Shown here in pieces: positions 28,608 through 62,014 of a DNA stretch of 64,000 bases (positions are counted from its first letter, which is position 1; each line of letters opens with the position of its first letter). Source of the DNA: Posidonia oceanica (lineage: Eukaryota; Streptophyta; Magnoliopsida; Alismatales; Posidoniaceae); the NCBI GenBank assembly GCA_037176725.1, contig JAZBRS010000075.1:72108001-72172000 (forward strand). The letters are read 5' to 3'. The notes under the pieces were generated by a model. That model ran no database searches. It saw only the letters and a program-made list of their open reading frames with translations, and had not been told where the DNA came from. Made by a program: the position numbers and the translations under genes.

Positions 28608-30449
28608 CCGTGTGCCAGGCCGGGGCGCCCCTTCGTGCCCCCTGCTATGCTTCCTCAGGCTCAACCCCCTGCGCATCTCCTAGCTAGGGCCCAGCCTAGA
28701 TCCCCTGTCCACCTTTTAGGGCGGCCTCAGCTAGAATCCCCTATACATCTTCTAGGCAGACCTCAGCCTGCCCCTGCCTTTCCACCCCAACAATCTTACC
28801 ATTTAGATAGATCTCAATATCCAGTAGGTCCCCCTGTAACCCCTCCTGTGCTCGCAGCACATGCTCCTGTGCTTATTGATTTAACCTTGGACACCCATCG
28901 CGTCCCTTACAGCTACGCCACAGAAATGTGTGCGGAAGTAACGCGATCAGGGAGGGTCTATAGATCCCCAGCACCGGCAGTTAGGCCAAACCGTCCTGAA
29001 CCTGCTATGCCCCCACCCTCTAACCAACCCATAGCAGATCCGACCCCTAGCCTACCCATAGTAAGCCAAATCCCTGCCCAACCTGTAGCGGCCCAATCTC
29101 CTGTGACTACCCCTCTAGAGCTTGCCAAAACTACTCCTCCTGCTGCTAAGAAAAACCAACCCAAAGCTGACATAACCTCTCAACTTAAGAAGGTCAAAGC
29201 CGACATTTCCATTTGGGACCTGATCCACACCTCTGCCGAACACCGCGAGGCTTTTCTTCGCATGTTCCAAGCCGCCCGTGTGTCCCAGTCTATTGAGCCT
29301 TCAGCTTTGGAAAGCATGGTGGGGATGATTGCGGAGCCCCAGGTCATCTCTTTTACGAGTGATGAGCTGCCTCCGGTGGGGATTAATCACAATCAACCCT
29401 TGTTCGTCACAGTTCAGTTCAAAAACTTTCGCATTCCTCTAACACTGGTTGATAACGGGTCAAGCCTTAACGTCTGCCCCTTGCGTACTGCAACAAAGCT
29501 CAGATTCAAAGCCGAGGATATCACACCAGCCGTGAAAGGAATGACAACTTTTGACAACACCCACCATGATGCTCTGGGGATCCTGATTATTCCTCTTGCC
29601 ATTGGCCCGGTCGTGTTCGATGTAGAATTCTATGTCGTCGACTTGAAGCCAAACTTCAATTTTCTGCTTGGGCACCCTTGGCTCCACATGCATCAGGCCA
29701 TTCCCTCGACCCTCCATCGAATGATAAAGTACCGTCACGACGATGATGTCATTGTCGTCATGGCGGAGAACTTTGAGAATGAGCGGATCGAGGCAGTCTC
29801 CCCCGTCTCTTCACAAACTATCCCTTTTGACCCCAAGACTTCCGAAGCCTTCTATCACGTTAATCGGTGTGTGCCGGTTAACTTCATTTCTGATCTTGAA
29901 CGCGCCAACTCCTTGGCCGTTCACAACAACCCCTTTCGAATGATCGAGAATGTATGTCACAGGTGGGGTTACATAAAGGGTACACCGCTCGGGCGTCACG
30001 GCCAGGGGATCGCAGAGCCGATCGTAGCGGTGGAGTAGAGGAAATCTAAAGGCCTCGGTTATGAGCCCAAGCCCAACGAAGATCATTGCTTTCAGCTGAA
30101 GGATCTGGAGCCAGCCATCCCCAGAGACCTCACTAACTTCACCAGTGCAGGAGTTCAAGGATCAACAGATGATCAAGCCGCGGTGCCGACAGAAGAATGG
30201 GTCTGCAGTGAGGACTACTACTCGGATGAGGAGAAGTCTGGCACAGTAGAGGCAGTCCCAACTGGCAGCAAGGCTTTGGTCAGCACAGAGGCACCACACC
30301 ACATCTGCATCACAAGCACAAGCAGCAGCGGCAGCTCAGAAGTCAGAGACACTCCTTCAGGCTCAATCAGGCAGGTTACCTGTGGTCGCAGTCGCATCAG
30401 TACCGCTATCACTCTCTCTGGAGGGACAGTTTGTGAATTCAGGCGGTAG
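28608..30449 (+). pseudogene. pro: TE-D retropepsin-like protease with G-patch-like region, decayed
   Basis: It continues the gag frame. A Pro-rich spacer precedes an aspartic protease domain at about 29380-29750, with the active-site segment LVDNGSSLNVCP and the flap/second-turn motifs FLLGHPWLH. The catalytic triplet reads DNG rather than DTG or DSG; such DNG proteases occur in Ogre/Tat elements. A Gly-rich segment follows (WGYIKGTPLGRHGQG, then KGLGYEP) resembling the G-patch found after the protease in related elements, broken by TAG at 30036. The frame then runs acidic and Ser/Thr-rich to a stop near 30447. It would cleave the polyprotein. Confidence in protease is good, in G-patch moderate. 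Confidence 0.75.
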
Positions 30450-33737: not shown

Positions 33738-34241
33738 CAGCGTATAACGTTATAAGCGGGAGAACTCGCGTATAACGACCTCCGAGGCATAATTGCCAGG
33801 ATCAAAGAAGATTCTCCAATTAAGGAGTCCTTAAGTGTGATTAAACTCGACTTTGATGGCTTTGACCGGTCAACAGGTTCTAAAGATGGCAAAAACACAA
33901 TTTTTGGATTAGGCCAAATATGGAAAGCTTTGACTGACTGGGTTGCCACGTTGGACGCTGCAGAGCCAGCGGCCAACGTTAGCCACTGGAAAACCAGCGG
34001 CCAATGTTGTACGCGGTCAATTCAGCAGACAATACTCTTAATTAGTTTGCCTTTCAAATTTAGTCAAGACGTGAAGAACACTCAGGTTGCCAACATTTGG
34101 GGCTTAAAAGGTATAGCATTTTGAATTTTAGAGGGACATTTAGTTCAAGCGAGATTCAAAAATGGATGGAGGGCCTCTAAGAGCGATGTAATGCAAGGGA
34201 CTATCCTAACATGAAGGGAGTGCCAAAACGTGGTATCTACA
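33738..34241 (-). repeat. TE-E 3' LTR, truncated
   Basis: Matches 56652-57155 base for base in length (504 bp). The inner edge is ggtatctaca at 34241. The left break falls inside the 3' arm of a 12-bp hairpin present in the intact LTR (56635-56662). The open frame 33837-34124 here is not a gene because it recurs in the other LTR. Confidence 0.92.
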
Positions 34242-34258
34242 GATTGCCCCTCCTTGAA
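34242..34258 (-). other. TE-E polypurine tract
   Basis: The minus strand reads TTCAAGGAGGGGCAATC followed by the LTR start TGTAGATACC, an exact fit to the polypurine tracts of Tat/Ogre elements. Confidence 0.85.
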
Positions 34259-34424
34259 GATGGCTTCGGCACGAAGCTATCTACAAGGCGAGACGATACC
34301 CCCATGTGGCGCTACCTGGGGGTCGTAAATGAAATCCAATGCCTGCTGCCACCAGACTTGGACGGGACACAAAGAGGGTCGGCTAAAGAAACATGGCCAA
34401 GGGATTGCCCAAGGGGAACAAACT
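34259..34424 (-). other. Spacer next to TE-E polypurine tract
   Basis: Non-coding; no feature recognised besides ccaaggg/cccaagg words that resemble the following array. Confidence 0.4.
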
Positions 34425-34625
34425 AACGACATGCCACGGGGAAGACCCGTGGGGGTCAAGCTAAAGGACACTGCAGCGGGAAAGACCTGCGGGGGGCAAA
34501 CTAAAAGACATGCTATGGGGGTGGCCCGTAAAGGTCAAACTAAAAGACATGCTGCGGGAATGGCCCGCAGGGGTCAAGCTAAAGGACACTGCCCTGGGGA
34601 AGACCCGTGGGGGTCAAACTAAAAG
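34425..34625. repeat. TE-E hairpin array 1, five units of about 38 bp
   Basis: Units share ggggtcaagctaaaggacatg-like spacers and differ in a stem region. Unit 1 has CCACGGG with CCCGTGG, unit 3 TATGGG with CCCGTA, unit 4 CTGCGGG with CCCGCAG. Arms remain complementary although bases differ. Confidence 0.7.
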
Positions 34626-34859
34626 GATGGATAGCTAATGATTCCGACGACCACTCAATGCGAATGCAGTATAATGCGAATGCAGTACAATGCGCTATGC
34701 ATGGATGCGTGCTGACGGGAATGCAAAAGGGGTCATGATATGCAATGCATGACCCTAGGTAATGAGGTTCCTCCATCATCGTCGGCTTTAATTTGTATAC
34801 CGGGTTGGCTCAGGAATTTTTCTCACCACCCAAGGCGGACTGACACATGCGTGAATGCA

Positions 34860-35220
34860 ATTTGTCATGATCAGGTGCCCTTTCGTCGAGTGTAGCCTAC
34901 ACTCTCCAGGTGACCGTCGTCTCATGATACGTGGATTGGTGAGTGAGAGGTCCATGATGCTCCTAGGCAATAGGGGAAACGACTTCTTCTCTGCCGACCA
35001 CGTTGGCTCGATTCGTCACAATTAGGTGTCCTTTCATCGAATGTTGCCTACATTCTCGACAGTGACCGTCATCTCGTGACCCGAAATCAATGAACAATGA
35101 GTCCATCGATACCGTTGGCGTTATTTATCAGAATCAAGTGTCCTTTCAATGAATGTTGCCTACATTCTCGGTGGGGACCATCATCTTCTGACCCGGGAGT
35201 TAGTGAACAAGGGGTTCACT
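34860..35220. repeat. TE-E triplicated 3' hairpin block (about 110-140 bp units)
   Basis: Three copies of a block gtgtcctttc, hairpin, gaccgtcatct, then a gttggc-type end. The hairpins are at 34888-34904 (GAGTGTA and TACACTC), 35039-35055 and 35151-35167 (both GAATGT with ACATTC). The same block occurs once in TE-A and TE-B. The stretch 34626-34859 before it holds nothing recognised. Confidence 0.7.
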
Positions 35221-35239
35221 AATACCGTTGGCTTTGCTT

Positions 35240-36075
35240 TGTTGACTCGGTCATGCTCCAGGGGTCTTTCTACTGGTTGGTTTTGCTTTGTTTGTCCAGT
35301 TGTGCTCTGGGGTTGCTTTGTTTGTCTGGTCATGCTTTGGGGTTTGCTTTGTATGTCCGGTTGTGCTCCGGGGCTTGCTTTGTATGTCCGGTTGTGCTCC
35401 AGGGCTTGCTTTGTATGTCCGGTTGTGCTCCGGGGTACTTGCTTTTGATTGACTTGCTTTGTTTGTCCGGCTGTGCTCCGGGGTTTGCTTTGTTTGTCCG
35501 GTCATGCTCAGGGGTTTGTTTGTATCTCCGGTTGTGCTGCAGGGCTTGCTTTGTATGGTAGGTTTGCTTTGTTGTTCTGGTTGTGCTTCGGGGTCTTTCC
35601 TTGGTAGGTTTGCTTTGGTGTCCTAGTTATGCTCCGGGGATCTTTCTTTGATTGGTTTGCTTTTTATCCCGGTTGTGCTTCGGGGATCTTTCCTTCGTAG
35701 GTTTGCTTTGTTATCTCGGTTATGCTCCGGGGATCTTTGCTTTGGTGTCCTGGTTATGCTCTGAAGTTGCTTTGTTTGTCCGGTCATGCTCTGAGGTTTG
35801 CTTTGTATGTCCGGTTGTGCTCCGGGGCTTGCTTTGATTGACTTGCTTTGTTTGTCCGGTTGTGCTTCGGGGTTGCTTTGTTTGTCCGGTCATGCTCCGG
35901 GGTTTGCTTTGTATGTCTGGTTGTGCTCCGGGGATCTTTCTTTGATTGGTTTGCTTTGTTATCCCGATTGTGCTTCGGGGATTTTTCCTTGGTAGGTTTG
36001 CTTTGTTATCTCGGTTATGCTCTGGGGATCTTTGCTTTGGTGTCCCGGTTATGCTCCGGGGATCTTTCTGATTGA
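35240..36075. repeat. TE-E hairpin array 2, about 25 units of 27-50 bp
   Basis: The unit is TGCTTTGT(TT)GTCCGGTTGTGCTCCGGGG with variable length. The CCGG-type arms flank tt(a/g)tgct. Variants include CCAG/CTGG (35298), CCCGG/CCGGG (36040) and CCCGA/TCGGG (35963). Open frames across it (35149-36075) are repeat artefacts giving Leu/Cys-rich products. Confidence 0.8.
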
Positions 36076-36079
36076 TTTG

Positions 36080-36690
36080 CCGAGGGGATTACCCAAGGGA
36101 GGCAGAAAATAAAAAAACCTGACATGCCTAGGGGAAGACCCAAGGGAGTCGAAAATAAAAACTTGACGTGCCTAAGGGAAGACCCTAGGGAGTCGAAAAT
36201 AAAAACTTGACGTGCCTAGGGGAAGACCCTAGGGAGTCGAAAATAACAGCATGACGTGCCTAGGGGAAGACCCAAAGGAGTCGAAAATAAAAACTTGACG
36301 CGCCTAGGGGAAGACCCTAGGGAGTCGAAAATAAAAGCAGGATGTGCCTAGGGGAAGACCCTAAGGAGTCGAAAATAGCAGCATGACGTGTCTGGGGGAA
36401 GACCTAGGGAGTCAGAAATAAAAATTTGACGTGCCTAGGGGAAGACCCTAGGGAGTCAAAAATAAAAACTTGACGTGCCTAGGGGAAGAACTTAGGGAGT
36501 CGAAAATAAAAACTTGACGTGCCTAGGGGAAGACCCTAGGGAGTCGAAAATAACAACAGGACATGCCTAGGGGAAGACCCTAGGGAGTCGAAAATAGTAG
36601 CATGACGTGCCTAGGGGAAGACCCTAGGGAGTCGAAAATTACAGCAGGACGTGCCTAGGGGAAGACCCTAGGGAGTCGAAAAGGATACTC
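36080..36690. repeat. TE-E hairpin array 3, about 14 units of 44-45 bp
   Basis: The unit is gtcgaaaataaaaacttgac, gtgcctaggg, gaagaccctaggga. Each unit contains CCTAGGG and CCCTAGG separated by GAAGA, a near-perfect 7-bp stem. Units are well conserved, suggesting recent amplification. Confidence 0.9.
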
Positions 36691-36759
36691 TTTGGCTTAG
36701 CTTGCTTGTTGACCCAGTGTGCTCCGGGTTTCTTTTCTGCTCTCAATTCTGCTTTGCCT

Positions 36760-36960
36760 TGTTGGACGCTTGATTCTCAGTGTTCAACGTTGGACGCTTA
36801 AAGCATCGCGGCTAACGTTGGACGGCATTACGGCCGCGTATAACGTCGCGAGACAGGCTGCTGTCCTTCCTGTTTGGGCATCACCGTTTTGGCAGTAAAT
36901 TCCCAATCTTCCCTGGATTTCCATTTTGATGATGCTCCACGGCCTATATTAGACCTCCTA
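36760..36960 (+). promoter_or_regulatory. Palindrome cluster and TATA-like box upstream of PMD gene i
   Basis: Copies of the E palindrome (caacgttggacgc, ctaacgttggacg, gcgtataacg) lie at 36770-36855. A weak TATA-like tatatta is at 36945-36951, about 90 bp before the start codon. The same layout precedes genes ii and iii and the LTR promoter. Confidence 0.5.
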
Positions 36961-37038
36961 TTGGCTTGGATCTCGTAGTTCAAACATCTATCTTCCTTCC
37001 CTTATTGATTTTGCTTGCTAGGGCTTCTGCTTCTCCTC

Positions 37039-38388
37039 ATGGATTTGAATGATATCCCACGACACGCTTTCCAGGTGGCCGTCTTCTCCTCTCCTTCTGA
37101 CATGAAGCAGCTCCGGCTAGAGGCCATACCCAACCATTTGGCGAACCTGTTGGTGCATGAGAAGGTACTCCCCGTTTGCATCTTTTCCACATATTCCCAT
37201 TCTCGTACTTCTGCTGATTTTTCTTTACTTCATAGCCTCTATCTTCTGCCAACAACGATCGGGACTCGAAAGCCTATCAGTTGGACTGGGTTCAACAATT
37301 CCGTTCTTGGCTTTGAAGAAGTACCGAGAATGCTTGGAGGAGGTTGGTCTCTGTCAGGCCCTTCGCTAGTTGCGGCAACCTGTTGACTGGAAGGCACTCT
37401 TCGGCCTCTATGGGCTGTGGAATCCCTTGACCCATACAATCTTTTCTTCTGCTGGGGAATTGACCATTCTCTTGGAGGAGGTGAGCACCCTCCTAAGTAC
37501 TTGGCATGCCGATCCATCCATTTACTGCAGGGATGCCTACCTTCTGCCGATCGGGGTGGTAGGCTCTTTTTCACTCCTAAAGTGCATCTTCGGCTCCGTT
37601 GTTGTCCTAGAGGATCTGGTGCTGGATGGCTGTATCAAACTCTCCTCTCTGTGGAAATTTTTCTATAAACAGCGTGACAGCATCCGCTCCGAAGTATCTT
37701 GCTTGGAATGTGTCTTCATCCTGATCGGGGGATTGGTGCTCTTTCCAAATGAAGCTTTGACTATTAGTGCCTACCACGCCGAACTCATGTGCATCTACGT
37801 GCGCAACCTAGAGAAGTGTTTGAGTCAGTTTATTTTGGCTTTTACCATCCGGGGCCTATCCAGTGCTTGCCTCGGGGGGCCATTCTTTGGCTCGTCGTTC
37901 CTTGTTCTGCGCTGGCTGGAGAGCACTTTCTTCTGCTTGCTTTTGATGCTAGCCTTCCCTTGGAGGAGCTTATTCGCCGTTTTTGCGCTTGCGAGGTCAA
38001 GTCCCAGACGGACTCCTTCAATCGCCCCTCGTCTTTCAAGACAGTATCTGACCCAGAGTATTTCTTGACACTAACTGGGGCGACCAAATTTGTTAGGTAC
38101 AACCCTCAGTGTTGCTTCTTGATGCTGGGGACTCCTCGGGCAATACCTCCCTTGCCGCGCTTCTCTGATATGATTCTTCCGCGTTTGAGGGACACTCCTG
38201 GGGACATCATCCAGGTCTTCTATCAGACTGGTATTTGGGATGGGAAGGGGTGAAACTGAGTCCTTTCTGCATGGGAGAACTTGAATGCGGATCGTGAAGC
38301 CATCTCTCTTGCAACTTATGACGCTTGGTACGAGGGCGTGCGTCCTAAATTGTTCATTGAATTTCCTTCAAAAGGACAGAAGATGTAA
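37039..38388 (+). pseudogene. PMD-type gene i, antisense in TE-E, decayed
   Basis: Exon 1 is 37039-37164 (42 codons from ATG, MDLNDIPRHAF), donor gtactc. A phase-0 intron runs to the acceptor tacttcatag at 37235, and exon 2 starts at 37236. Exon 2 is broken by a TGA at 37314, TAG at 37367 and at least two frame changes (near 37315 and 37800-38000), ending at TAA 38386-38388, with aataaa at 38412. The product is homologous to gene iii over its length: ELTILLEEVSTLL, CVFILIGGLVLFPN, AYHAELMCIYVRNLEK, GPFFGSSFLVLRWLE, and KFVRYNPQCCFLML. This resembles the plant mobile domain (aminotransferase-like PMD) superfamily. Function in the element is unknown. It lies on the strand opposite to gag-pol, which explains how its intron survives retrotransposition. 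Confidence 0.65.
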
Positions 38389-38489
38389 TTAGAAATGTAT
38401 CCCTTATCATCAATAAAATTTATTTCGTCTCTTTGGTACATAATGAATGAATTTGTATGAATTGAATGAGAATATCAAATTCAGAACAC

Positions 38490-38669
38490 TTCCCTGAACT
38501 TAAAGCGTTGTACGCCCAACTTGGAGCGTCCAATGTTATACGCTAGAAATCCAGCAGCTAACATTTTAACTCGCAAAACGTTGGATGTCAGCATTCATGC
38601 GTATAATGTCTTTTCTTCCCGAGGCGTTGGACGCTAGGATTCACGTGTATAACGTTAAAAGGTATAAAA
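38490..38669 (+). promoter_or_regulatory. Palindrome cluster and TATA box upstream of PMD gene ii
   Basis: Palindromes gcgtccaatgttatacgc (38521), gttggatgtc, gcgtataatgtc, gcgttggacgc and cgtgtataacgtt are followed at 38663-38669 by a clear TATAAAA, 99 bp upstream of the ATG at 38768. A cacgtg core (G-box) lies at 38643-38648. Confidence 0.6.
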
Positions 38670-38767
38670 CCCTCGTCCTACGCCACAGGCGGCTATCAGG
38701 CCTCTTTCTTCTCTTCTTCTCTGGCGACAGCGATCTATCGGCGGGCTTTTCATCCCCTCCGGTGATC

Positions 38768-41700
38768 ATGGAGCGTCAAATCAGCCACTTCTACACAAGA
38801 GCAGCGAAACAGGCGCGGATTGGGCCCTCCCCCTTCGACGAACCGGCGGTGGAGGCGGCGGCTAGAGCTGCTACCGCACGGGGGACAGCGGCGGGGGCGG
38901 CGGGAGACGTGGCAGGCGGCGGGGAGGCCGGGGTGGCTGTTCCGGCAGCGGGAGGGCCTGTTCCAGCAGCTGTAGTGGCTGGGCTGGCGGCTCTGGTGCC
39001 CAGGTCGGTTGCTACGGTGGCCGTGGAGGCCAAGGCGGGCGTGGCGGACGTGGTGGGGGCTGGTGGTGTTGCGGCGATGCTCGGGGTGACGTCTAGTGGT
39101 GATGCCGTGGCTACGTGGGCGGAGACGAGGGCTGCCGTGGGTGGTTCTACGAAAACCGAGGCGGCGGTGACGGCTAGTGAGGCCATCGTAGGGGAGAGTT
39201 CTGGCTCCGGGGAGGCCGGAGAGTCGACAGCAGAGGCGGTCCACAGTGCGAGTACGTCCTTCAGCTTGGGGGATTCCAAGGAGACGGTCTCAGAGGCGAG
39301 ACCTAAGGTCGGTCCAGACGAGGCGGGGCCCTCGAAGGTGCCCGAGGTGCGGTCGGTCGACCCCCTCCTTGAACAGTTTGGGGAGGACGACAGCTGGTGG
39401 CGAAACATGGTGGATTTCGTCCGACGGGAGGCGAAGGGTGTCGCGAGGGATCCCCTGGATTACTGGCGGGAGGCGATCCCCAGAGACGAGGTGCAGGCAT
39501 CGAGATCGCGCAGGGACGTGTCCCGATCAGAGTACGCCACTGCCACACTGGCCTCCAAAGGGCAGGTATACATTTTCCACTATTTTTTCGTTTATTTTGG
39601 TAAATTATTTCATCCGGGCTGATAATTTTCCTATTTACTTGTAGAGTCGAGCACCGGCTGTGACCCACTGCTACTGGGGTCAGGTCCGCCGGTCCTACGC
39701 CTTGTTGGCTTCTTTCCAGCAGGAGCGTCTGCATCGAATGGGGTTTAGGCGTTTTTTGTCCATCCCGGACTTTCCCCTCCGTCCGATGTTTCTAGTGGCG
39801 GTGGTAGAGCAGTGGAACTTTTGGACGAGCTCGATCGTGACCCGGGCAGGCGAGTTTGTCCTCTCACTTGAGGACATGGCGCAGTTGACTGGTCTTCGGG
39901 TTATAGGCAGGCCAGTGACAGGGAGAGTGCGCCCGAGCTACTCAGTTTTGGCGCAGGAGCTCGTGGGGTGCCAGTTAGCCATGAGCGGGGAGCAGCTCGT
40001 GGTGATTACCTCTGCGGTCCACCGGGTGAGTGAGCTACCAGAGACAGTTGAGGGACTAGGCGTGGAGGCTGACCAGCAGTTGTGGGCCTTCCTCTTGGTG
40101 CTGTTCGGAAAGGTGCTCTTCTCGCACTCCTCCTCGAAGCTCTCGGCGTGGTTTTTTCCCCTTCTAGCGGACCTGGAGCGTGTGGGAGAGTATGCTTGGG
40201 GTGCGGCGAGCTTGGCGCAACTGTACTCCACCTTGTTTCGCTTCACCGACGGCAATTCTTGCTAGCTGGGCGGGAACCTGCCTTTCCTTCAGGTAAATTT
40301 GCATATTTAAGCTTGTATTGAATATTATATTCCTGCTAATAGACTTTCTTGTTTTGCTTGCAGATGTGGGCATGGGACCATTTTGTTTTTCTGCAGCCTG
40401 CCCCTCCTCCAGTTCCTCCTTCCGGTGTCCCCTTTCCTAGGGGACTATTTTGGGCTGTTGCTGAGCAAGCCCTCGAGCCTACTGATGACAACCGCTATGT
40501 CGGTTGTCTACTTTTTGAGCTTATTGTCCTGGCTCAGGTAACTTTTAATTTCAGCTTCTGTTTATTTGTTTATGCTGCTTACTGACATGTATTGCTCTTT
40601 TCAGGTGGCTTGGCGTCCTTATGCCGAGGGAGAGCACGCAGACGTCCCCGAGATTGCCCGTGATCGGGCCATTTTCGACCGGGACGTATGGATCCACTAC
40701 TGGAACCACTGCCATTTCCAGCAGATCAGCAGCGCGGTACGGCAGCTAGGGCGTCTGTAGGCTCGGACTTCTCCTCCTCCTCATTGGGTTTGGCAAGAGA
40801 CACGCAGCGGGGGCAGCCGTGCTCGCCACTGGGTAGACGTCTACGGCCCACAGCTTCTGGACTGGGCCCGTCATGGTTTCCCTGCTTCGACGGACGCTTC
40901 AGAGGAGGATGAGGTGGACTGGACTGCGTGGATAGAATGGGAGTTTTCGTCTCTGATGATCTTCCACTGGTCCCACTTCCTTGGGCGTAGGAACCTTCCT
41001 TTGGGGGACACCGATCCCGGGGAGGCAGTGGTTTCTCGTGCAGCCCTGTTGGAGGAGGTTCAGTCTCCTCGCGCCCAGCTAGAGATAGCGGTGAGCTTTT
41101 GAATTGCATTTTGTATATTGTTAATTCAATTTGGCTAATTGGCTTTCTTTCTTTTTGCAGCTCAAGACAGCCGATGAGTGGACTCAGCAGGAGCGCCATT
41201 TGACCCAGCGGCTCTTCACTTTGACCGGGGAGATTGATCATCTACGGGCCTTCGCTTCTCAGGTATATTTTCACAGATAGCTTTTGTTGTTTGGATATGA
41301 ATCGTGATTTGACTTGGATCTTCCTTTTCAGCCTTCGACCAGCAGTGCTCCACCTCCAGACCGCTCAGAGGAGATTTCCCACCTCCAGGAGAAGGTAAAT
41401 ATGCTTTCATTTCGTTTCTGCTTTTGAAAACCCCTTGGTACTAACACCATTGCTTGCAGGTCACTTATCTAGAGGGCGAGCTGAGGGAGTGGGCTGGTGA
41501 CTTCATAGCCGCCAGCTCGGTTAGGAGGTTAGAGGAACTTGAGGGGACAGTCGCTGCTAGGAGTGCTCGGGTCCAGGAACTGGAGCATGGCTGATAGGGA
41601 CGCTGAGATTGCCCAGTCTCAGGCGGTATAATTTAATTTGATGCTTCTTCATGCCCTTTATGTCCTTGCTCGTATCTGACATTTGGATTGTTTCCCTCCT

Positions 41701-41973
41701 CAGAGCATGGCGGAGACTATTTCCCAGCTTGAGTTCGAGCTGGGGCACTACCGGAGGTTCGCCTTTACTGCCAGTGTTAGGCTTGGGGTGTCTGTTCCTC
41801 CTGTGTCGAGCCGTCGGTCGGGTAGCCACTCCTGGTTTGTTTCCAAGGCCCTGTTAGGTGCTTTAGTTCGACAGTCGCCTCGTCCCCCTACTGCCCCTTC
41901 TCCGGCTCCTGCTCCTACTCCTGCTTTAGTTTCTGCTCCAGCTCCTGAGGGTGAGGGAGAGAGTGCTCCCTAG
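38768..41973 (+). pseudogene. PMD gene ii: eight-exon plant mobile domain gene, antisense in TE-E
   Basis: By canonical GT/AG borders the exons are 38768-39565, 39645-40292, 40364-40537, 40605-41090, 41161-41262, 41332-41394, 41460-41625 and 41704-41973. All introns are phase 0 and 65-79 nt. The protein would have about 900 residues: MERQISHFYTRAAKQ start, a long Ala/Gly/Val-rich region, then the PMD (GFRRFLSIPDF, LSLEDMAQLTGLRVIGRPV, WAFLLVLFGKVLF, YAWGAASLAQLYSTLFR, LPFLQMWAWDHF, VAWRPYAEGEH), a coiled-coil-like tail (exons 5-8) and a Pro/Ala end. Breaks are TAG at 40263 and 40758 and one extra base in exon 7 (166 nt). PMD proteins include the MAIN/MAIL family of host silencing factors and many transposon-borne copies. 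The role here is unknown. Few lesions imply recent loss. Confidence 0.75.
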
Positions 41974-42799
41974 CTTTTTGTACTTCAGGGGTATGCCTCG
42001 GTGACTTTGTAGAACAATTGTACATTTTGAAATGATATATATTTCTGCACACTTAGTAAACTTGTCAAATACTTCTTTTAAATTACCTTTCCCAAAGCTA
42101 AAGTGAACTTAAGTGACCAATATGGTAAAATAATGGCCCTTAATTCAAATTAACTTGAAACCAGCATATTGAAGTGAAATAGTACGTAAATGACATAGTT
42201 ATATGGAAAGATTTCACCTGGGAGCTTAAGAACTGAATTTTGAAGTCATCGTTGCCTTAACGAGCTGTTAACTTGATGAAACGAGCAACCAGCAATTCCG
42301 ACTAGCCTGGATGTCCGAAAAATATGAAACCAACGCTCGCACGTGTATTTCAACTTAGTTAAGCCTCTGGAATGGGCAAAACGGGCGAATGCAACTCAAT
42401 CACGGATCAGAGGGCGATCCAGCCAAGTTCAGTGACTTAAGTCACTGATAAAACGTTATATGCCTCGGATGGCGCGGCCAACGTTATCCGCTTCAACTTC
42501 TGTGTCCAATGCTGGTGGCTGCTGTAAACATTATACGCCTCAGATGGCGCGGCTAACGTTGGATGTGCAGAGTCTCGCGTACAACGAAGCGAGCCCAAAA
42601 AATTTTCTTTCCTTTCCTGTTCTTGGCTAATCTTTCGGAATACTTGCGAAATTTTCTCAATGTCCGCGTGAAAGATTTCCGACGATCCTCCTGTGCTTAT
42701 AAAGACTTGGCTACTCCTTTGATTTTTCATGCATACATGCTCTTTTCCCTTTCCACTGATTTCTTCCTTATTTTTGCTTCTTCCTTCTTTTTTGCTTTC
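41974..42799 (+). promoter_or_regulatory. Spacer with palindrome cluster and TATA box upstream of PMD gene iii
   Basis: 41974-42440 is AT-rich with nothing recognised beyond a likely 3' flank of gene ii. At 42450-42592 lie palindromes (aacgttatatgcc, ccaacgttatccgc, aacattatacgcc, taacgttggatg, cgcgtacaacg) with a twice-repeated cctcggatggcgcggc word. TATAAAG follows at 42698-42704, 96 bp before the ATG at 42800. Confidence 0.55.
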
Positions 42800-44152
42800 A
42801 TGGCTTCTAGTTCAGTCCCCAATGTCTTCATGCACAACAAGAAGGGGGTCGTAAAACCTTTGGAAGAGATTGAAGGGCATATGATGTCCCTTATCAAGAT
42901 GGGAAAGGTATGATCTTCTTCATTAGTCCCTTCACACTCTTTTTGTTCCTCATGCTTCTGAACTTCTTTGCAGGAAATTCTCAACTTCACCAAGACACCT
43001 TGCTTTGACAGTGATTTTCCCTACTACTCCACTTGGATGAAGGATTTTGTGCTCTGGGCTCGGGAGAAGAAATCTATTTTGGCCCGTACGTGCTTTGATG
43101 GACTTCTGGATTTGTTGGGCACAAACTTGGATTGGCCCCTACTTCACGCCTAATGCGCCTTCTGGAGTCCTAAGACTCATACTTTCTTCTTTGGGGGTTG
43201 TGAGGCAACAATCCTAGTGGAGGATGTTCACAGCTTGCTTGGTGTAACTCAAATTGGAGCGGCCCGGCCAGATATTGACTTCCCATTGCCATACGGAATA
43301 GCGGATATGCAAACATATATAGACCGTATCTTCACCCTTCCGCCTACCTTCCCAGTGATCAGAGGTCGTAGACTCAAATTGGTGCATTTGTACTTCAGCT
43401 TCCGGTGGATTGAGGAATCTGCCTTTCAGGATCAGCTGTTGGTGTGTCTGCATTTACTGATTGGAGGCCTCACTTTATTTGTCACCAAGGATTTCTCCTT
43501 GGATGTCTACCATACTGAGTTTTTGATAGGCCTTACTGAGCATTTCTGGTGCTCTCCTTCAGTGGCCATTCTTGCTGCCACATATCTTGGCCTGACCAGT
43601 GTTTCCACAAGAGGGGACTTTGTAGGCTCTCCTTTCCTTCTTTCCAAGTGGCTGCAGGTCCATTTCCCGAGGCTTGGGCCCGTGAAGACAGATTTGATTG
43701 AGGAAAGGGTTTGCACTTTGTCTGCTGCCCCTATTGATATTTCTGCGCCTTCCACGTCCCTTTCCCATAAGCAACAGGCACGAGGTTCTTCAGTTGAGTT
43801 GGAGCTGATAGGGCCCACCCACTTTGTAGTATACAACTCCCATCGTTGCTTTGAGATGGTGGGGTAGAAGAAAGGGGTGCCGCCTCGGCTGAACTTTATT
43901 CCTCGTATTCGGGTTCGGGAGTGCAGTCTTCCATCTGATGTAGTAATGGTGTACTACATTCGGGCTCTCTGGTCGTCTCTGGACCGCCATGATGATTCGG
44001 AGGGGCCATTAACTGCTCCTTCCTACCTACCACGGGAGGATGCGCATTGGAAGTGGTATTCGAAGCTACTGCCCAAACTCGAGGAGTGGGTTGAAGCGAC
44101 AGGCGTGCTGCGCAGAAAAGGAAGAAGATGGTTAGATAGGCAATCATTGTAA
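42800..44152 (+). pseudogene. PMD-type gene iii, antisense in TE-E, two nonsense codons
   Basis: Exon 1 42800-42907 (36 codons, MASSSVPNVFMHNKKG) ends at gtatga. A 66-nt intron ends ctttgcag at 42973. Exon 2 42974-44152 keeps one frame and is broken only by TAA 43151 and TAG 43865. Total about 429 codons. Segments shared with gene i: CEATILVEDVHSLLGV, LLVCLHLLIGGLTLFV, YHTEFLIGLTEHFW, GSPFLLSKWLQVHFP, THFVVYNSHRCFEM. The exon-1/exon-2 layout and phase are the same as in gene i, so the two are paralogues on either side of gene ii. The family is PMD-like; enzymatic activity is not expected from anything seen. Expression from its own TATA box is plausible. Confidence 0.65.
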
Positions 44153-45869
44153 TTTTGATTTTTGGGGACCATGTATCTTCTCCAGGGAATATATATATAT
44201 TTCATTTTCATCCTTATTCATGTGTTTTGAATTATTCTGAATTTAGAAATACTCCTTCGTGACTTTGATGTTTGCTCAAAAGCCTTCTGCCCAACAATCT
44301 GCAGTTTAAGTTACAGTTAAAACGTAAGACGCTCAAACTGGCACTTATAATGTAAGACGCAGAATATCCAGCGTCCAACATCCCCGTGTTGATCGTTATA
44401 CGCTTCAGATGGCACGTCTAACGTTGGACGCTGATATTTGCTCATTTAACGCTCCTGGGCTGTTTTCTTACATTACCCTAGCAAATTTGTTAGTCCATCT
44501 AGGGGTATGATTGCCCCTAGTCCAAAGTGCCTTCCGGAAACTCAGAAACATTTTTAACATTGTGAAATTAGCATGGTCACAAGACACTTGGTAACAATCT
44601 ATATAATGCATACTTTAAGCAAACCTAATGCTATGACTGGGAAAGAAATTAAGAGAAACTTAGATTTTGAATAACAAGTATTGGCCTCAGCTTTGTTGTC
44701 TAAAGATGATATGCCAAACGAGGGACTGTCTCTTCTTGAGATCCCAGTCTTAGCTCGTAGGCGAATACCAAGCGACCGTCCTGAATAGGAGGGGTTGGGT
44801 ACGATGCGGAGTCGTAAATTGTCCTAGATTTCGCATTATTGGCCTTTACTTGTTATTAGTTTCATGAGATGATGTTGGTTGGGTAAATTTTACCCTATTC
44901 ACTATTTTTGGATTTTTTATTTATCATTTTTTTTTGGATTTTTTATTTTATCATTTTTTTTTTGGATTTTTGGCTTTATCATTTTTTTTGGATTTTTGGC
45001 TTTATCATTTTTTGGATTTTCGATTTTATCATTTTTTTGGATTTTTGATTTTATCATTTTTTAGATTTTTGATTTTATCATTTTTTGGATTTTTTATTTT
45101 TTGGGGAGATGAAGAATCCTCCGGGAAGTTGGGAAAACTTGGGACCTCATGGTTGGAAAACCTTGACAGTTTGGTCCCTTGTGCATCCTAGAGTCAGAGA
45201 ATATCACGAGCTTATTTTGGCACCTAACTGCCCCTAGACCTAGGCCTCTACCCTTTGCCTCTATGTGTTCAGTGCAGGATGTGGGTAGAACGAAAGTCCA
45301 TGCCCTATCCTAAGATGTTGGCTGAAGATTTGAAGCCTAAACCCCTCCTAGTTCAAGGTTGATTCCTACTGCGTTTAGTATTCCCCAGCTTTCCAGTTTT
45401 TGACTCTTGGATAGCTTCTTTGCTGCCGTCTTTCCCACACTCTTTCTTTTCCTTGCTCATGGATAGCTTCTTTGCTGCCTTCTTTTCTGACCCTTTTTGC
45501 TTTTTTTTTTTTGGTATTTTGGCAAGTAGTCTCACCCCTTCTGAGTGCTCGGTCAATTGATACTTGTTCTTTGACGAATCGAGACACTCTTTCATTTGGT
45601 ACACTCCCCTCTTTTCTGTGCTTCTAGGTTTTGGCCTTATATGCCTACCCAATTTGTACTAGGGTAACGCGCCTGACTCGAGGGTTGTGTGGGGACTTGT
45701 TATTCATGAACTGGGAGGGGGCTTCTTATGATTTGCCTCTATCTCAGTGTAGGACCATTTCCTTTCCCTCTCCCACAAGGTGTTTGTGGGGTGAGGCTAA
45801 GGCAAGATTCCTAGGCTTCAACAGCAGAGGGCCCTTGAGTACGGGTAGTCTAATGGCTCAGTGTGCATA
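44153..45869 (-). other. TE-E spacer between integrase and the antisense genes
   Basis: Non-coding. It holds an E-palindrome cluster (44320-44460), a T-rich tract of tttttggattttttattttatca-type units (44880-45100), and the gcttctttgctgcc words (45410-45500) shared with the TE-A/B 3' regions. The antisense gene cluster ends here and gag-pol ends at 45870, so the two transcription units converge. Confidence 0.55.
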
Positions 45870-47008
45870 TCAAGGGTAGTACCTTTTGAGGTACAGTGCA
45901 TTCCAAGGGTATTCAAGCCTCGCGCCATCCTCTCTGGCCAAACAGTAGGCATTGCCTGGATATGCCTCAACCACCAAGTACGGTCCTTCCCAATTTGGTC
46001 TCAGTTTCGCATGCTTGCGAGGAAGGATTTCTTTAAGCACCCATTCACCAATATTGAATTTACGTTCAATTACTTTCTTCTTATATGCTCTTGCAAGTTG
46101 TTCTTGGTAGAGCCGTGCATGCTCAGCTGCTTGCAATCGCTTCTCATCTAGCAAATCCAATTGTAGACTTAATAATTGCCTCTTATCATCGGCAGTTATC
46201 TCATTGTCGAGTTGTATCCTGGATGAGTGGATCATGACCTCAAATGGGACTACCGTCTCCATACCATAAGTAAGTGCAAACGGGGTTTGGCCCGTAGGCG
46301 TTCTTATGGAGGTTCGATAGGCCCACAAGGTATCAATTAGCTTATCTGTCCAATCATGTCCCTTGGCCCCTACCGTTTTCTTAAGGATTTGGATTAATGT
46401 TTTATTAGTAGCTTCAACTTGCCCATTACCTTGGGGGTAATATGGCGATGAATGATGGAAATCGATCTTAAACTTCTTACAGAGCTTTTTGAAGTCTTGG
46501 GATATGAAGATTGCGCCATTGTCTGCTACCAATTTCTTTGGGATCTCAAACCTTGAGATGATATTCATCCGCACGAACTTGCAAAGATTTGAAGCTTTGA
46601 TTTCAGTGAATGCCCACTGGTGAAGTACTCAGTGGCTGTGAGGATGAACCTATTCTGCTTTTCGGTGTCGAATGGTCCGACGACATCAAATGCCCACATA
46701 GAGAAGGGCCACACTGCTTGGGTCGGATTCAATTCTGATGTTGGCGCATGTATTCTGTCTGCATGGATCTGGCACTGCCTACACCTTCTTACTTTGTTTG
46801 CGCAATCTGCCTCCATTGTGGACCAGTAGTATCCTCTGCGCAATATCATTTTTGCCATGAATTGAGAACTGATGTGTCCTCCACATAAGCCTTCGTGCAT
46901 TTCTCCGATGATAACTTCGACCTCCTCATAAGTGACACAGCGTAGCTCTATTCCGCTGAAGGACCTTTTGAAAAGGACCCCGGCTCTCATGAAGTATCTT
47001 GTAGCCAT
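45870..47008 (-). pseudogene. pol: TE-E integrase
   Basis: The zinc-binding HHCC region (EMHEGLCGGH ... VRRCRQCQIH) is followed by the catalytic core with FDVVGPF, ADNGAIF, the YYPQGNGQVEATNK segment supplying the final Glu, and a C-terminal part (FNIGEWVLKEI, KLRPNWEGPYLV) ending YLKRYYP at a natural stop. The D, D and E residues are present. A frame change near 46570 splits the domain, so this copy is inactive. It would insert element DNA with 5-bp target duplications. Confidence 0.9.
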
Positions 47009-47074
47009 CCTCTGGACTGCCTCCTTGTCTTGTGAAGTTTCGTAGTCGGGGAAGATCTCTTCTTGATTGAAGTT

Positions 47075-47641
47075 CTAGATGTCAAAGAACCATGGGTTCC
47101 CGTCATCCTCTATGTTGTAGCAAACTTCAAACATGCCTACTCTTGGTTCCCTAACTTTTTGTTTAAGCTCCACGGCCCATGGCTCAGTTGAGTCAATGGC
47201 AGGTGTCCCGTGTTGCTGAACCATTATGGTTTGCTCCCGGATGTTGATGGGGAACTCGATTGAGGAAGCCAGCGAAGCAAGAGCATCCGCTAGGAGGTTA
47301 TGACTCCGGAGGGTGTGGACGTACACCACTTGCTGAAACTGTGCCAATAGGAGGCGTGCCATGCCCTTGTATTCTTCTAGCTTTGGGTTGAGGGTTCTAT
47401 ACTTGTTCAGAATTTGTCTTAGAACCAACTGGGAGTCTCCGATGAGTTTCAACCGCCTTGCCCCTAGCTCCAGTGCTAGGCATAGTCCGAGGATCAAGGC
47501 CTCGTATTCTGCGACATTGTTGGTATTTGCGGTGAAGTTTAACTATACAGCTCGAGGAATGAGAACTCCCTCCGGAGTGAGAAGTGCTACCTTGATGCTT
47601 GCCCCTTGTCTGTTGAGTGCTCCATCAAAGTAGAGAGTCCA
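47075..47641 (-). pseudogene. pol: TE-E second RNase H (archaeal-type)
   Basis: WTLYFDGALN, (A)EYEALILGLCLALE, LIGDSQLVLRQI and LLADALASLAS carry the full D-E-D-D set. TAG at 47545 interrupts it and TAG at 47077 follows. It would remove RNA from the RNA-DNA hybrid. Presence of this domain places TE-E in the Tat clade. Confidence 0.85.
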
Positions 47642-48343
47642 TTGTTGAGTGGGAGACTCGGTGGCTTGTATTTCCAATATCTCCTCATCGGGGAAGTCTG
47701 TCCGGACTGGTTGATAATCTTCTATTGGTAGTTCTGCTAGGTGATCTGCAATGTCTTGCCCCTTGACTGCCTTCTGGGACACATATTGCAAGTCGAATTC
47801 AGTGAGGAGAAGTGGCCATCTTGTCAACCTTCCAGAGAGGGTTGGCTTTTCGAACATATACTTGATTGGGTCCATTTTGGCAATGTAACAGACTTTATGG
47901 GCTAGGAAGTAGTGTCTCAACTTTTGAGATGCCCATACCAAGGTCAAGCAGTGCTTTTCTATGGATGTATATTTCCCTTCATAACCAAGGAAAGTTCTAC
48001 TCAGATAGTAGATAGCCTTTTCCTTCTTTCCATCCTCATCATGCTGAGCTAACACTACCCCTATTGATGATGCAGTGGCTGCCACATAGAGTAGCAAAGT
48101 CTTCCCTGGCACAGGCGCTGATAAGACTGGGGGAGACATGAGATATGCTTTGAGTTCATCGAAAGCTTCCTGGCATTTCTCATCCTAGGTGAATTCCTTT
48201 CCTCCTTTCAGTAATTCATAAAATGGCTTACATTGATCTGCATGTTGTGAGATGAATCTCCTGATGAATTGTAAGCGGCCAATAAGTCCTCTGAGTTCCT
48301 TGATGTTTCTGGGCGGAGGCATCTGTGCTATTGCTCTGGCCTT
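47642..48343 (-). pseudogene. pol: TE-E RT connection and first RNase H, degenerate
   Basis: After the connection segment (IKELRGLIGRLQFIRRF, TAG 48187) comes the gypsy RNase H: LLLYVAATASSIGVVLAQ, YTSIEKHCLTLVWASQKL, QDIADHLAELPIEDY. The first catalytic Asp, normally in a YxDAS context, is replaced (YVAATA). This agrees with known decay of this domain in Tat elements. Confidence 0.75.
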
Positions 48344-49372
48344 CTATGGGTCCACCTCGATTCCTCTTTTGCTGATGATGAAGCCTAGTAGCTTCCTGGC
48401 AGTTACCCCAAACATGCATTTCTTTGGGTTCATTTTCAGCTGATATTGCGTTGCTCTGCTCAGTACCCTTCTCAGTGCCTCAAAGTGTACCTCCCTTGTT
48501 CTTGATTTGACCAAGATGTCATCAACATACACTTCCATGCAATCGTGCAACATGTCATGGAAGATGGCCATCATCGCTCTCTGATATGTTGCACCGGCAT
48601 TCTTGAGACTGAATGGCATGACTACATAGCAGTATGTCCCCCATGGTGTGATGAACGATGTCTTCTCTTGGTCCTCCTCTGCCTGCTTAATCTGGTTGTA
48701 GTCGGAGAAATCATCCATGAAAGATAGCATCTCAAATCCTGCTGTATTGTCCACTAGCAAATCAATATGTGGCAAAGGGAAGTCATCTTTGGGACAGGCG
48801 GCATTGAAGTTGCGATAGTTAATGCAAACCCGAACTTTCCCGTCCTTTTTGGCCACTAGTACTATATTTGAGACCTAGCTGAGGTACACAACCACTCTGA
48901 TGAATTTTGCTTTGTGGAGCTTGTCAATTTCTTCTTTGACTTTGAGGGCGAGTTCTGGCCTTAGTCGCCTCAGCTTCTACTTGACAGGCTTGGTTCCAGA
49001 GTTTAGTGGAAGCAGGTGTTCCACTAGGGCTGAGTGCAGTCCAGGCATATCCTCGTATTTGAAGGCCAGCACATCCACAAACTCTTTCAAGATTTGGATC
49101 ATTTCCTCCCTCTCTTCTGGGCTCAGGCTTGCACTTATGAGTATTGGTTTTGGCTCTTCAGTGGTTCCCAGGTTGACCTCCACGGTCTCCTCTTCAGCTG
49201 TCTTGGTTTGCTCATCATATTTGTCCATGAGGTGCTTAAGGAGGTCGGAGTCTGCCTCTTGATCTTCTTTCTCATCACTGCAGCTCACCACCTCATATGC
49301 TTCTATTCCTGCACACTTCTCAAACTTATCAAATTCTTCTACCAGGAAGACCATGTTAGCAGTAGCCAGTTC
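48344..49372 (-). pseudogene. pol: TE-E reverse transcriptase
   Basis: A pre-RT segment (VNLGTTEEPKPILIS, LHSALVEHLLPLNSG) leads via TAG 48979 and TAG 48877 into the RT core: VAKKDGKVRVCINYRNFN, DDFPLPHIDLLVDN, FMDDFSDYNQI, TSFITPWGTYCYVVMPF, NAGATYQRAM and the catalytic VYVDDILVK. The frame is otherwise uninterrupted from 49372 to the integrase. It lies in a different frame from gag-protease (see the candidate intron). Confidence 0.9.
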
Positions 49373-49505
49373 CTAAGGCAATGCCTTCGTGTATTGACAC
49401 ACGTGCACAGTTTTGGAAGCGGTGGTCGAAGTTGACCGCGAGCTGCTAGAACTAACATAGTGATCCTCTCCCTTATTGAAAACAAAAAGCAAATTACTTT
49501 TATTC

Positions 49506-49578
49506 CTAGGAAATGAAAACAATGCAGAATTAAACAAAGTTTTATTTACAACATCTAGAGGGATGCCCCTAGAGTTAC
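49506..49578 (-). other. Candidate 73-nt intron joining gag-pro to pol
   Basis: On the minus strand GTAACT at 49578 and a pyrimidine-rich TTTCATTTCCTAG ending at 49506 bound 73 nt. Removing 73 nt converts the gag-protease frame into exactly the frame used by RT, RNase H and the first part of integrase. Ogre elements are known for a spliced intron between protease and RT. Two nonsense codons just before the donor (TAG 49607, TGA 49586) weaken the case in this copy. Confidence 0.45.
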
Positions 49579-50672
49579 CTCCATCAGTAGAGGTAGGCGC
49601 CTCTCTAGGCGGGCTCGTCAGGATTGACGTTCCAATCATCTTCGAGAAGCTCATAGTCGGCCCCTAGATCGGGGTCAATTTCAGGTCTCTGAGGTTGTAG
49701 CCCTTCAGAGAGATCAGCCGTGAGGCGGCGAACCTTGTCTACGAGTCGTTGTGACTTTCGTAGAACTTGCCCCGGCCTTTGCTCCAAGGAAGAAGAGATA
49801 TCCAGAGCTGGAGGAGGCGGAGGCTTGGAAGCGGCAGTGCCGGAAGAAGAGGGAGAAGCAGAAAGAGGCGGCCAATCCGGAGGTTCAGGGGCCACGGCGT
49901 CGGAAGAAGAGGGCGAAGAAGAAAGAAATGGCCGATCCGGAGGTTCGGGGGCTGGTGCACCTAACAGTGGTGGCGATGATGTTGCAGTCTGACCTTCGTG
50001 AGGTTTTGTTGGCAACTCTTTTGCAGTCTGACCCTCGTGGGGTTTTGCTGCGATAGTCTGGCCTTCATGTGGCTTTGCTGTCAACTCTCTTGCAGTCTGA
50101 CCTTCGTGAGGTTTTGCTGGCAATTCAAGTGTTTGGAATAATCCGGAAATGTTTACGTCGGCTGTGTCCTCTTCACTTTAGAGAGTATGTTTGGTTGATT
50201 GCGCCAAAATAATATTTGCCAGGGGGATGAATTTGGATCGAATATCCCTACACTGGTAAAATGTCCTTGTAGATTCCTACTTCTGTTCCCTTCCTTCTCT
50301 GTCACAAGCCTTCACTGGCTCCTTCATTCCCTTCCCTTCTGGGCCTAAGCCCTGGCCCTTCTTGTAGCCAATTCTTCTCATGATTACCCACCCTACATTC
50401 ATGGATGGTCCTTTGTTTTTGGAGGGTTATTTCTTCTTGTGGAATAGCCTAGGCCTAGCCCACTTGTCCCTTAGCTCGACCATAGATACTATATTCTTGC
50501 CTTTTTCGGCCCAGGTCAGTTTTTCTCGCACACTGAACTGGTGCGGCAGGTATATCACATTCGCCTCTGCTTCTTGGCCTGGTATGTCTCCTGCTATTTT
50601 GATGATTTTCCCATTGTATGGGAATTTCAGACATTGGTGCCGAGGAGATGATACTCCTTTTAGACTGTCTAG
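49579..50672 (-). pseudogene. TE-E protease-RT linker
   Basis: The gag-protease frame continues after protease 2 (LDSLKGVSS and QCLKFPYNGK just downstream of the TAG at 50675). A segment at 50123-49605 then has four KPHEGQT repeats, a Pro/Ser-rich stretch and an acidic end. The DNA repeat behind KPHEGQT is a 36-45 bp tandem unit (49980-50120). It is an interdomain linker with no enzymatic motif. Confidence 0.55.
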
Positions 50673-51257
50673 CTATTGTCTCCCCAAGATGATCTGACAT
50701 GGAACATTGACGTCTATGATGATTAATTGGGTTAGAACCTGAGCTGGTCCTATCCCTATCTTTGTGGTCCACTTGCCGTGCGCTTTTCTCTTGCTGTCAT
50801 CATACTCGGCAATCGTCATGTCAATGGGGGTTAGGGAGGCCTCATTCACGCCCAAGGCTCGTATTGTATTCAACGAGCATATGTTCATTGATGCACCAGT
50901 ATCTATGAGCACTTCAGAAATTAAGTGATTGTTTATAGAAATGGTTACATTCAATGGAGCTTTTCTCCTCTCTATTGGTGCCAACTCGCTATTAGCAAAA
51001 GTAATGATTGGTTCTACAAAGGCTGCTGTAGTTATGATGTGGAGTTCCTCTGCTGCCATGTCTGGGGCAACTTGGGCCTTCTCTAGCACTTCTAGCAGAG
51101 CTTTCCGGTGTTCATTGGAGCTGTTTATGAGGTCATAGATCGAGATCTTGGCCTGCGTCTTCTTTAATTGCTCTAGGATGTCATATTCCGCCGACCCGGG
51201 TCCCACTTCAGGTCTGACCGGCTCTGCTTGCTCTGCTGGGGGCATGATTCGATTTGA
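50673..51257 (-). pseudogene. pro: TE-E retropepsin domain 2
   Basis: LEQLKKTQAKISIYDLINSS precedes a protease fold: LNVTISINNHLISE, active-site VLIDTGASMNIC, and IDVNVPCQIILGRQ. The DTG triad is intact. The frame is the same as gag, bounded by TAG 51260 and TAG 50675. This is the protease that occupies the usual place before RT in Tat/Ogre elements (the KADISIWDLI-like segment of TE-D is the counterpart of AKISIYDLI). Confidence 0.8.
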
Positions 51258-51662
51258 CTACCTCCCTCCTCCAATGATGGGCGCAATAGCCTCGTTTCCT
51301 TTAGATGCTCCCTTCTTGAGTGGCCAAGCGAAGATGGACTCCTTCCGTGTGGATCCGCCAAGCTCTAGTGGTTTTGTGGTCCTAGCTTGCTGTTCTATTG
51401 GCACTCGGAAGATTGGGAAGGATGGAGTAGTAGTGCTCCAGAGTATTGAGGTGCTGAGGGCCGGCAATTGGCTTGATGGTAGCCTTGCAGCTTCGAAGAT
51501 TGGGGAGACTGGTGGCGAGAGCAACTTGAGCTCCCATAGTGGTGATTTTCACCATGGCAGACGTTGTGTCTCCTCCTCCTCCCGAAGGGTTGCGATTTAT
51601 GGCTCTGGCATCTTGAATGTGCATAGAATCTCTGGTCGGTTGGCTGGAATACTGACAACCAC
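51258..51662 (-). pseudogene. Spacer between the two TE-E protease domains
   Basis: Continues the gag-protease frame with several stop codons and a Ser/Pro/Thr-rich readable stretch (51524-51260). No domain recognised. Confidence 0.45.
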
Positions 51663-52319: not shown

Positions 52320-52352
52320 GACTTGATGCTTGGGGAGAGGGTTGCTGTAGAC

Positions 52353-56560: not shown

Positions 56561-56570
56561 TGCTTTTATA
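56561..56570 (-). promoter_or_regulatory. TATA box of TE-E 5' LTR
   Basis: TATAAAAGCA on the minus strand. Palindromic motifs occupy the 65-400 bp upstream (56635-56960). Confidence 0.65.
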
Positions 56571-62010: not shown

Positions 62011-62014
62011 TCTT

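Follow-up and report, generated by a model that had tools for sequence, protein, structure and literature searches.

The window analysed here is a stretch of 64,000 nt from Posidonia oceanica (assembly GCA_037176725.1, contig JAZBRS010000075.1, positions 72,108,001-72,172,000 of the forward strand), a genome represented by 2.96 Gb in 80 contigs. It contains TE-E, a Tat-lineage Ty3/gypsy retrotransposon on the minus strand at 33738-57155, which carries three additional genes, here called i, ii and iii. These genes lie between integrase and the polypurine tract (PPT) on the plus strand, opposite to gag-pol, just where a first-pass annotation of the letters alone had placed them. The span given in that annotation began at 36760, which proved to be the site of the first promoter array and not a gene start, while the genes themselves were borne out.

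Gene i (37039-38388, +) consisted of two exons (37039-37164 and 37236-38388), gene ii (38768-41973, +) of eight (38768-39565, 39645-40292, 40364-40537, 40605-41090, 41161-41262, 41332-41394, 41460-41625 and 41704-41973), and gene iii (42800-44152, +) again of two (42800-42907 and 42974-44152). All nine introns that had been annotated, one in gene i, seven in gene ii and one in gene iii, had GT..AG borders and lengths of 65-79 bp, and introns 1-6 of gene ii were in phase 0. The GT..AG borders were retained in 14-19 of the 17-19 aligned copies per intron. On the genomic RNA the introns read CT..AC, so that the proposed escape of these antisense introns from splicing stands, and the genes would keep their introns through retrotransposition. 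All three had been called PMD genes, which held for gene ii, whose exon 2 matched PMD (PF10536) at 1.4e-24 and 87.4 bits, above the curated cut-off of 34.9 bits. The pieces of gene iii (1.1e-7, 31.8 bits) and gene i (0.0086, 15.7 bits) fell below this cut-off, as did an open relative of gene i in L036, an older relative of TE-E elsewhere in the genome (29.2 bits); genes i and iii are thus PMD-like. Since genes i and iii matched each other at E 5e-17 (31% identity over 186 residues, and 37% over 60), they are paralogues flanking the eight-exon gene ii, as suggested before. A protein database gave no homologue of gene ii at E 1e-3 among 7995 scored candidates, plants being suspected to be sparse in that database; among solved structures there was no relative and one chance match (E 0.34), and two stretches of viral contigs fitted a pattern of gene iii, neither of them a relative. 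In the window copy all three genes are disabled, gene i by stops and frameshifts, gene ii by two TAG stops (40263, 40758) and a broken frame in exon 7, and gene iii by two in-frame stops (TAA at 43151, TAG at 43865).

The gag-pol region of TE-E (45870-54149, -) had several broken frames, and its Pfam matches ran in the order protease, reverse transcriptase, RNase H, second RNase H and integrase, with no Pfam match for the gag piece. RT_RNaseH at 47543-48184 was followed by RVT_3 at 47075-47542 (1.6e-15) and then Integrase_H2C2, the arrangement of the Tat lineage, and the PMD match of gene ii (1.4e-24) provided the extra open reading frame (ORF) that is a trait of the Ogre clade. The antisense Transposase_28 (PF04195) typical of Retand gave no match at E 0.1 in the eight pieces of genes i, ii and iii that were scanned (for gene ii, from exons 1, 2 and 4). 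TE-E is one copy of a family of Ogre-like Tat retrotransposons that is abundant in this genome. Its 5' long terminal repeat (LTR; 55827-57155, -) has an uncertain inner end, and the 3' LTR is truncated to its first 504 bp (33738-34241, -); these 504 bp were common to both copies at 96.4% identity (33738-34241 versus 56652-57155). From L036, whose LTR aligned over 55827-57155, the full LTR was estimated at about 1.3-1.4 kb (about 1.33-1.43 kb for the 5' copy). No target-site duplication of TE-E was seen, and in its leader, where a tRNA-Arg site was sought, no primer binding site could be assigned with confidence.

The noncoding parts of TE-E contained a recurrent half-site, ACGTTRKACGC, in alternating orientation. 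Arrays of it, listed without strand, were located upstream of gene i (36759-36846, six half-sites), gene ii (38505-38655) and gene iii (42453-42587), between gene iii and integrase (44322-44431), and in both LTRs (33740-33778 and 33948-34014; 56633-56692 and 56862-56928), and further half-sites were found in the leader (54155-54215, 54604-54642, 55376-55414 and a weak one at 55682, within 54155-55692). Back-to-back half-sites overlap by 4 bases and thereby form the 18-bp palindrome GCGTMYAACGTTRKACGC, and the commonest distances between half-sites were 21 bp (+-), 7 bp (-+) and 28 bp. The 7821 bp of noncoding TE-E sequence, with both LTR copies counted and minisatellites excluded, held 40 half-sites at up to one mismatch, compared with a mean of 0.185 (maximum 2) in 200 dinucleotide shuffles. 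The genes, introns and gag-pol (14189 bp) held 0 at this threshold and a single one, in gene iii, at two mismatches; in the gag-pol region no half-sites were recorded. There were none in 34242-35282, nor, at up to two mismatches, in the minisatellites of 31-bp and 44-bp units between the gene block and the PPT (35283-36690). The host and other elements of the window (31058 bp) held 2, compared with a shuffle mean of 0.4. A general repeat finder independently recovered the arrays as sequences common to the gaps. In 18 facing units the half-sites were 74% identical, a figure partly accounted for by the selection of these units on half-site match and spacing, and the 10-bp spacers were 32% identical, which is near-random. 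It is thus the length of the spacer that is kept, not its sequence.

Four predicted promoters, those of the LTR and of genes i, ii and iii, each had an array upstream of a TATA box. For gene i the TATA box was at -94 from the ATG with half-site starts at -280 to -203, for gene ii at -105 with half-sites at -263 to -123, and for gene iii at -102 with half-sites at -347 to -223. In the LTR, half-sites at 228-284 and 464-513 preceded TATAAAA at position 586 (about 56570), the nearer array of the 5' LTR lying about 60 bp upstream of it, and a second TATA-like word followed at 1059. Among the copies with exon 1 aligned, gene i retained its TATA box in 17/17 and its array in 16/17, gene ii in 16/17 and 17/17 respectively, and gene iii retained both in 19/19. 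Such a layout suggests that the arrays may be binding sites of one sequence-specific, probably dimeric, DNA-binding factor.

A different view of the arrays is that they are targets or sources of silencing, such as hairpin small RNAs or CpG-rich boxes, and by-products of repeat turnover that bring the element no benefit. The boxes are indeed CpG-rich, transitions also predominate among the differences between copies in the gaps, and Sirevirus palindromes are described as small-RNA hotspots in the excerpted text of PMC5311732. A conserved hairpin is nevertheless ruled out, because the arms did not covary (complementarity 0.714 versus 0.717 when permuted, 18 pairs), so a hairpin is not what is kept. 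The position upstream of the TATA box is also fixed, and the half-sites exceeded their surroundings in conservation against L036 although they are CpG-rich. Upstream of gene i, 49/58 half-site positions were identical between TE-E and L036 and 168/271 elsewhere; after gene iii the counts were 46/51 and 236/328, and in the LTR 47/58 and 190/267. Summed, 142/167 half-site positions were identical compared with 594/866 elsewhere (Fisher P 5e-6). In one stretch shared with a fragment in the left part of the window, the counts were 36/40 and 35/61. Judged from these alignments, half-sites are better conserved than their surroundings in four of five comparisons, and a mere role in silencing appears unlikely. 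The left fragment (8586-9510) derives from an older relative of the TE-E leader, and its palindrome at 9444 is exact. From 6463 first-look candidates, the matches listed for this fragment include 39 further places at 84-89%.

The palindrome was not confined to TE-E. One fetched copy of the gene block (L013) was interrupted by an apparent 3.4-kb LTR of another Tat-like family (reverse complement 5213-8591), whose ends are related to the LTR of the element that hosts TE-E. In this LTR the palindrome recurs in seven array clusters with distances of 22, 7 and 29 bp, with 23 half-sites at up to one mismatch versus a shuffle mean of 0.07, and its four short BLAST matches to the TE-E LTR were all at arrays. 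The presence of the palindrome in an otherwise unrelated LTR is what would be expected if the arrays were sites of a host transcription factor with an ACGT- or MYB-like core, collected by the element as enhancers, with the PMD proteins having a separate role, such as one in RNA or chromatin processes. An array followed by a TATA box is typical of promoters, and the excerpt of PMC2829016 reports that Sirevirus palindromes match stress-factor sites in PLACE. Against a host factor, the register differs by family, 28 or 29 bp, and is nearly constant within each. An 18-bp palindrome is moreover long for a plant factor, and only one half-site at up to one mismatch was found in about 98 kb (about 88 kb distinct) of other loci (L001-L008 and L029-L035), a search that had ordinary host genes outside its scope. 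We regard a host factor as a serious contender, with a chance somewhat above one in three.

The gene block was also found in other copies of the family. Using exon 2 of gene ii as a DNA query, the best 40 matches (the window and 39 others at 93-94%) were drawn from 4579 first-look candidates, and with exon 2 of gene iii the best 40, again including the window (the 39 others at 96-97%), from 5765. Twenty copies were fetched: for gene ii the ten best matches outside the window, and for gene iii those ranked 2-11 outside the window. In 15 of the 20, genes i, ii and iii kept their order and orientation and the end of integrase lay on the far side of gene iii, in line with what the first-pass annotation would predict; the remaining five (L012, L013, L020, L023 and L026) were interrupted by deletions or insertions. 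Because the copies were chosen by their match to gene ii or iii, the fair counts are those of the other genes within each set of ten: genes i and iii were each present in 9 of those picked by gene ii, and gene i in 8 and the full gene ii in 7 of those picked by gene iii. For four of the 15 (L009, L011, L015 and L018), the alignment of exon 1 of gene ii was only partial (28-50%). L036 keeps gene i open but has lost gene ii, and the final 338 bp of gene iii, which are in a different frame, come immediately after gene i. The result is an open frame of 400 codons in L036 (6293-7715 of the reverse complement).

We further investigated selection on the three genes. Shared variation within the family was nearly all transitions in the genes as well, as a burst followed by methylation decay would be expected to produce, so that codon positions carry little signal, and a within-family ratio of nonsynonymous to synonymous substitution (dN/dS) was discarded for this reason. 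Since codon counts within the family are weak, the older relative L036 and differences fixed between subfamilies (third-position counts, L010 and L017 versus the other copies) were used instead. Exon 2 of gene i in the window and 17 fetched copies gave dN of 0.11-0.13 against L036, while dS was 1.8-3.0 for 15 of these 18 sequences and saturated for the other 3; the resulting dN/dS was 0.04-0.07 in the 15 unsaturated comparisons. Fixed differences fell at third positions in 11/14 cases in exon 2 of gene i (P 0.0007), 13/17 in exon 2 of gene iii (P 0.0003) and 19/36 in exons 1-6 of gene ii (P 0.012), with no fixed differences in exon 1 of gene iii. The end of gene iii, over 104 codons, showed a synonymous difference (pS) of 0.37 and a nonsynonymous difference (pN) of 0.14 against L036. 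The older substitutions thus bear the mark of purifying selection on all three genes, strongest for gene i and weakest for gene ii, which answers the question of dN/dS raised in the first-pass annotation.

The same findings bear on whether the block might be a nested or captured piece, of a Mutator-like element (MULE) or of host genes, with no function in the retrotransposon. A plausible source exists, in that intron 2 of gene ii coincides in position and phase (LQ|[MI]WAW[DE]H) with an intron of a MULE-borne PMD gene of this genome. That MULE-borne intron has GT..AG borders in L002 and L006; in L004 its acceptor is AA. Because of this common intron, gene ii probably came from an intron-bearing PMD gene and not from a processed transcript. 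In one unit read on contig C62, a MULE transposase (1.3e-16) adjoins a PMD exon (6.5e-44). Across about 0.37-1.86 Mb of that contig many PMD matches, mostly with open frames, recurred at about 25.4-kb spacing (the unit read being L029-L031), apparently a tandem array of the MULE-PMD unit. A block without function is very improbable, since it keeps the same order in 15/20 copies, has no termini of its own that we could find, and evolved under purifying selection; it is already contradicted unless the block copies are all recent and an empty parent family exists. In particular, neither an LTR nor a terminal inverted repeat turned up around the gene block, for which the first-pass annotation had raised the possibility of LTRs of its own; what the gaps have in common is the palindromic arrays.

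Together, these observations suggest that the three accessory genes form a selected cassette on the other strand from gag-pol, in which every gene has a predicted RNA polymerase II promoter of its own, and that the factor recognizing the arrays would tie expression of these genes to activity of the LTR promoter as an internal regulon. The accessory PMD proteins would most likely be nuclear and, either by themselves or through a partner, act on the chromatin of TE-E so as to keep the TE-E promoters open against host silencing. We consider it slightly better than an even bet that TE-E runs such a regulon, in which the arrays link the accessory genes and the LTR and the PMD proteins counter silencing. 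A narrower proposal is rather doubtful, though worth stating: at least one TE-E PMD protein might itself bind the 28-bp arrays and activate or de-silence the LTR and its own promoters, convergently with VANDAL/VANC, and the second Tat-like family with its 29-bp register might free-ride or compete.

Several points weigh against the regulon. PMD is not known to bind DNA, a host transcription factor fits the arrays equally well, and a fold prediction of the PMD ORF in the host element was uninterpretable (predicted local distance difference test, pLDDT, 36) and was not used. That host element, whose PMD ORF is in sense, had no array and only scattered single half-sites. For the array that follows gene iii (44322-44431) and for those of the leader no promoter can be named, and the zero count in the genes and gag-pol is no depletion, as shuffles gave 0.15. 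Regarding conservation, the LTR comparison with L036 is weak when taken alone (P 0.08), and 54536-55069 versus 8595-9137 showed the opposite trend (half-sites 20/29, elsewhere 398/502). Regarding selection, the signal for gene ii is the weakest and rests on exon 1 (17/29), exons 2-6 contributing 2/7, and the fixed differences in exon 1 of gene i were at third positions in 0/3.

The components of TE-E are each known separately; several of the sources compared here are represented by excerpts, to which the comparison is limited. Like the Ogre elements with a PMD ORF in Neumann et al. 2019 (PMC6317226, excerpt), TE-E is of the Tat lineage and has a second RNase H placed after the first and before integrase. 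That study reported PMD for 57% of Ogre elements and Transposase_28 for 23% of those of Retand, and the excerpt mentions no gene clusters, whereas TE-E has three antisense genes, nine introns, diverged sub-threshold genes i and iii, and promoter arrays. PMD has also been noted in Gypsy consensus sequences of 10 species, or 40 without the filter of that study (PMC9289625, excerpt). Grande, RIRE2 and Retand likewise carry antisense ORFs between pol and the 3' LTR with tandem repeats nearby (PMC7264820; PMC11963269, excerpt). Vicient and Casacuberta 2020 (PMC7264820) described antisense ORFs without known function, one of them with its own promoter (Grande gene23), and the excerpt of Vicient 2025 (PMC11963269) reports antisense coding regions in every recently active Retand cluster. 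The Retand ORFs carry Transposase_28 instead of PMD, and the excerpted text mentions neither introns (PMC11963269) nor operator arrays.

The arrays have their closest parallels in other kinds of elements. Bousios et al. 2010 (PMC2829016, excerpt) described palindromic boxes of Sirevirus clustered upstream of the LTR TATA box and of the env-like accessory gene, an arrangement that TE-E has as well. The Sireviruses are Ty1/copia elements with a mostly CGG-CCG core, a sense accessory gene and, in the excerpt, no fixed 28/29-bp register; TE-E is excluded from them because of its gypsy pol order. The VANDAL transposons (Hosaka 2017, PMC5735166; Sasaki 2023, PMC10398659; excerpts describing VANC and its motifs) resemble TE-E in a short motif repeated in noncoding parts and in encoding candidate regulators. 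They are unlike it in being DNA transposons with a non-palindromic motif, YAGTATTAY, and proven VANC binding, while for TE-E an element-encoded binder is a proposal. The PMD proteins MAIN and MAIL1 also act on the expression of transposable elements (PMC7156037, PMC8616336, excerpts), but they are host genes and silence these elements rather than promote them; transposon-borne PMD has been proposed as counter-silencing in the excerpt of PMC8616336. The first-pass annotation had regarded a three-gene cluster as beyond what is described. In the open-licence PMC papers surveyed, as excerpted, neither a gypsy element bearing arrays of this kind nor an antisense cluster of three PMD genes appeared, which agrees with that view, yet PMD genes as such are common in Ogre, so the novelty is confined to the way in which three intron-bearing genes are arranged and jointly wired. 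What is new is the promoter array common to the LTR and the three genes, a new combination of known components.

TE-E is nested in another Tat element on the plus strand, whose pol runs to about 33.7 kb and whose integrase resumes from 57.16 kb. A stretch of this host pol appears to be missing at the insertion when judged against the usual Tat layout. The LTR of the host element is followed by TGGTGACTTTGCTGGGGA, presumably a primer site. The host element contained an open 414-codon PMD/DUF7745 ORF (59707-60951, +; PMD 4.1e-12, DUF7745 9.1e-11), in sense with its own pol in contrast to the antisense genes of TE-E, and its protease ORF (28608-30038, +) had a weak G-patch match (E 0.002, below cut-off). 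TE-E itself had two consecutive protease-like pieces on the minus strand, 50673-51257 and 51663-52352 (gag-asp_proteas 1.6e-5 and 1.1e-6, the former below cut-off). Among the minisatellites, 36078-36682 had units with the dyad CCTAGGG-N5-CCCTAGG at a 44-bp period (P 0.008 versus shuffled units), and 61540-62018 had units with the dyad GATAAG-N8-CTTATC at a 41-bp period (P 0.045). The idea that all minisatellites of these elements are dyads was rejected, as only 3 of 16 units, hand-picked from 80 listed minisatellite rows, beat their shuffles at P<0.05, one of them being the TE-E LTR array unit.

These results bear on two open questions, the role of the antisense extra genes in plant gypsy elements and the molecular role of PMD proteins. 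With an array upstream of the LTR promoter and three selected genes, PMD proteins would have a defined candidate target. If a PMD protein does bind the array, TE-E would be a retrotransposon with a switch that it both encodes and reads itself, and this would offer a rationale for the PMD domains of the host silencing proteins MAIN and MAIL1.

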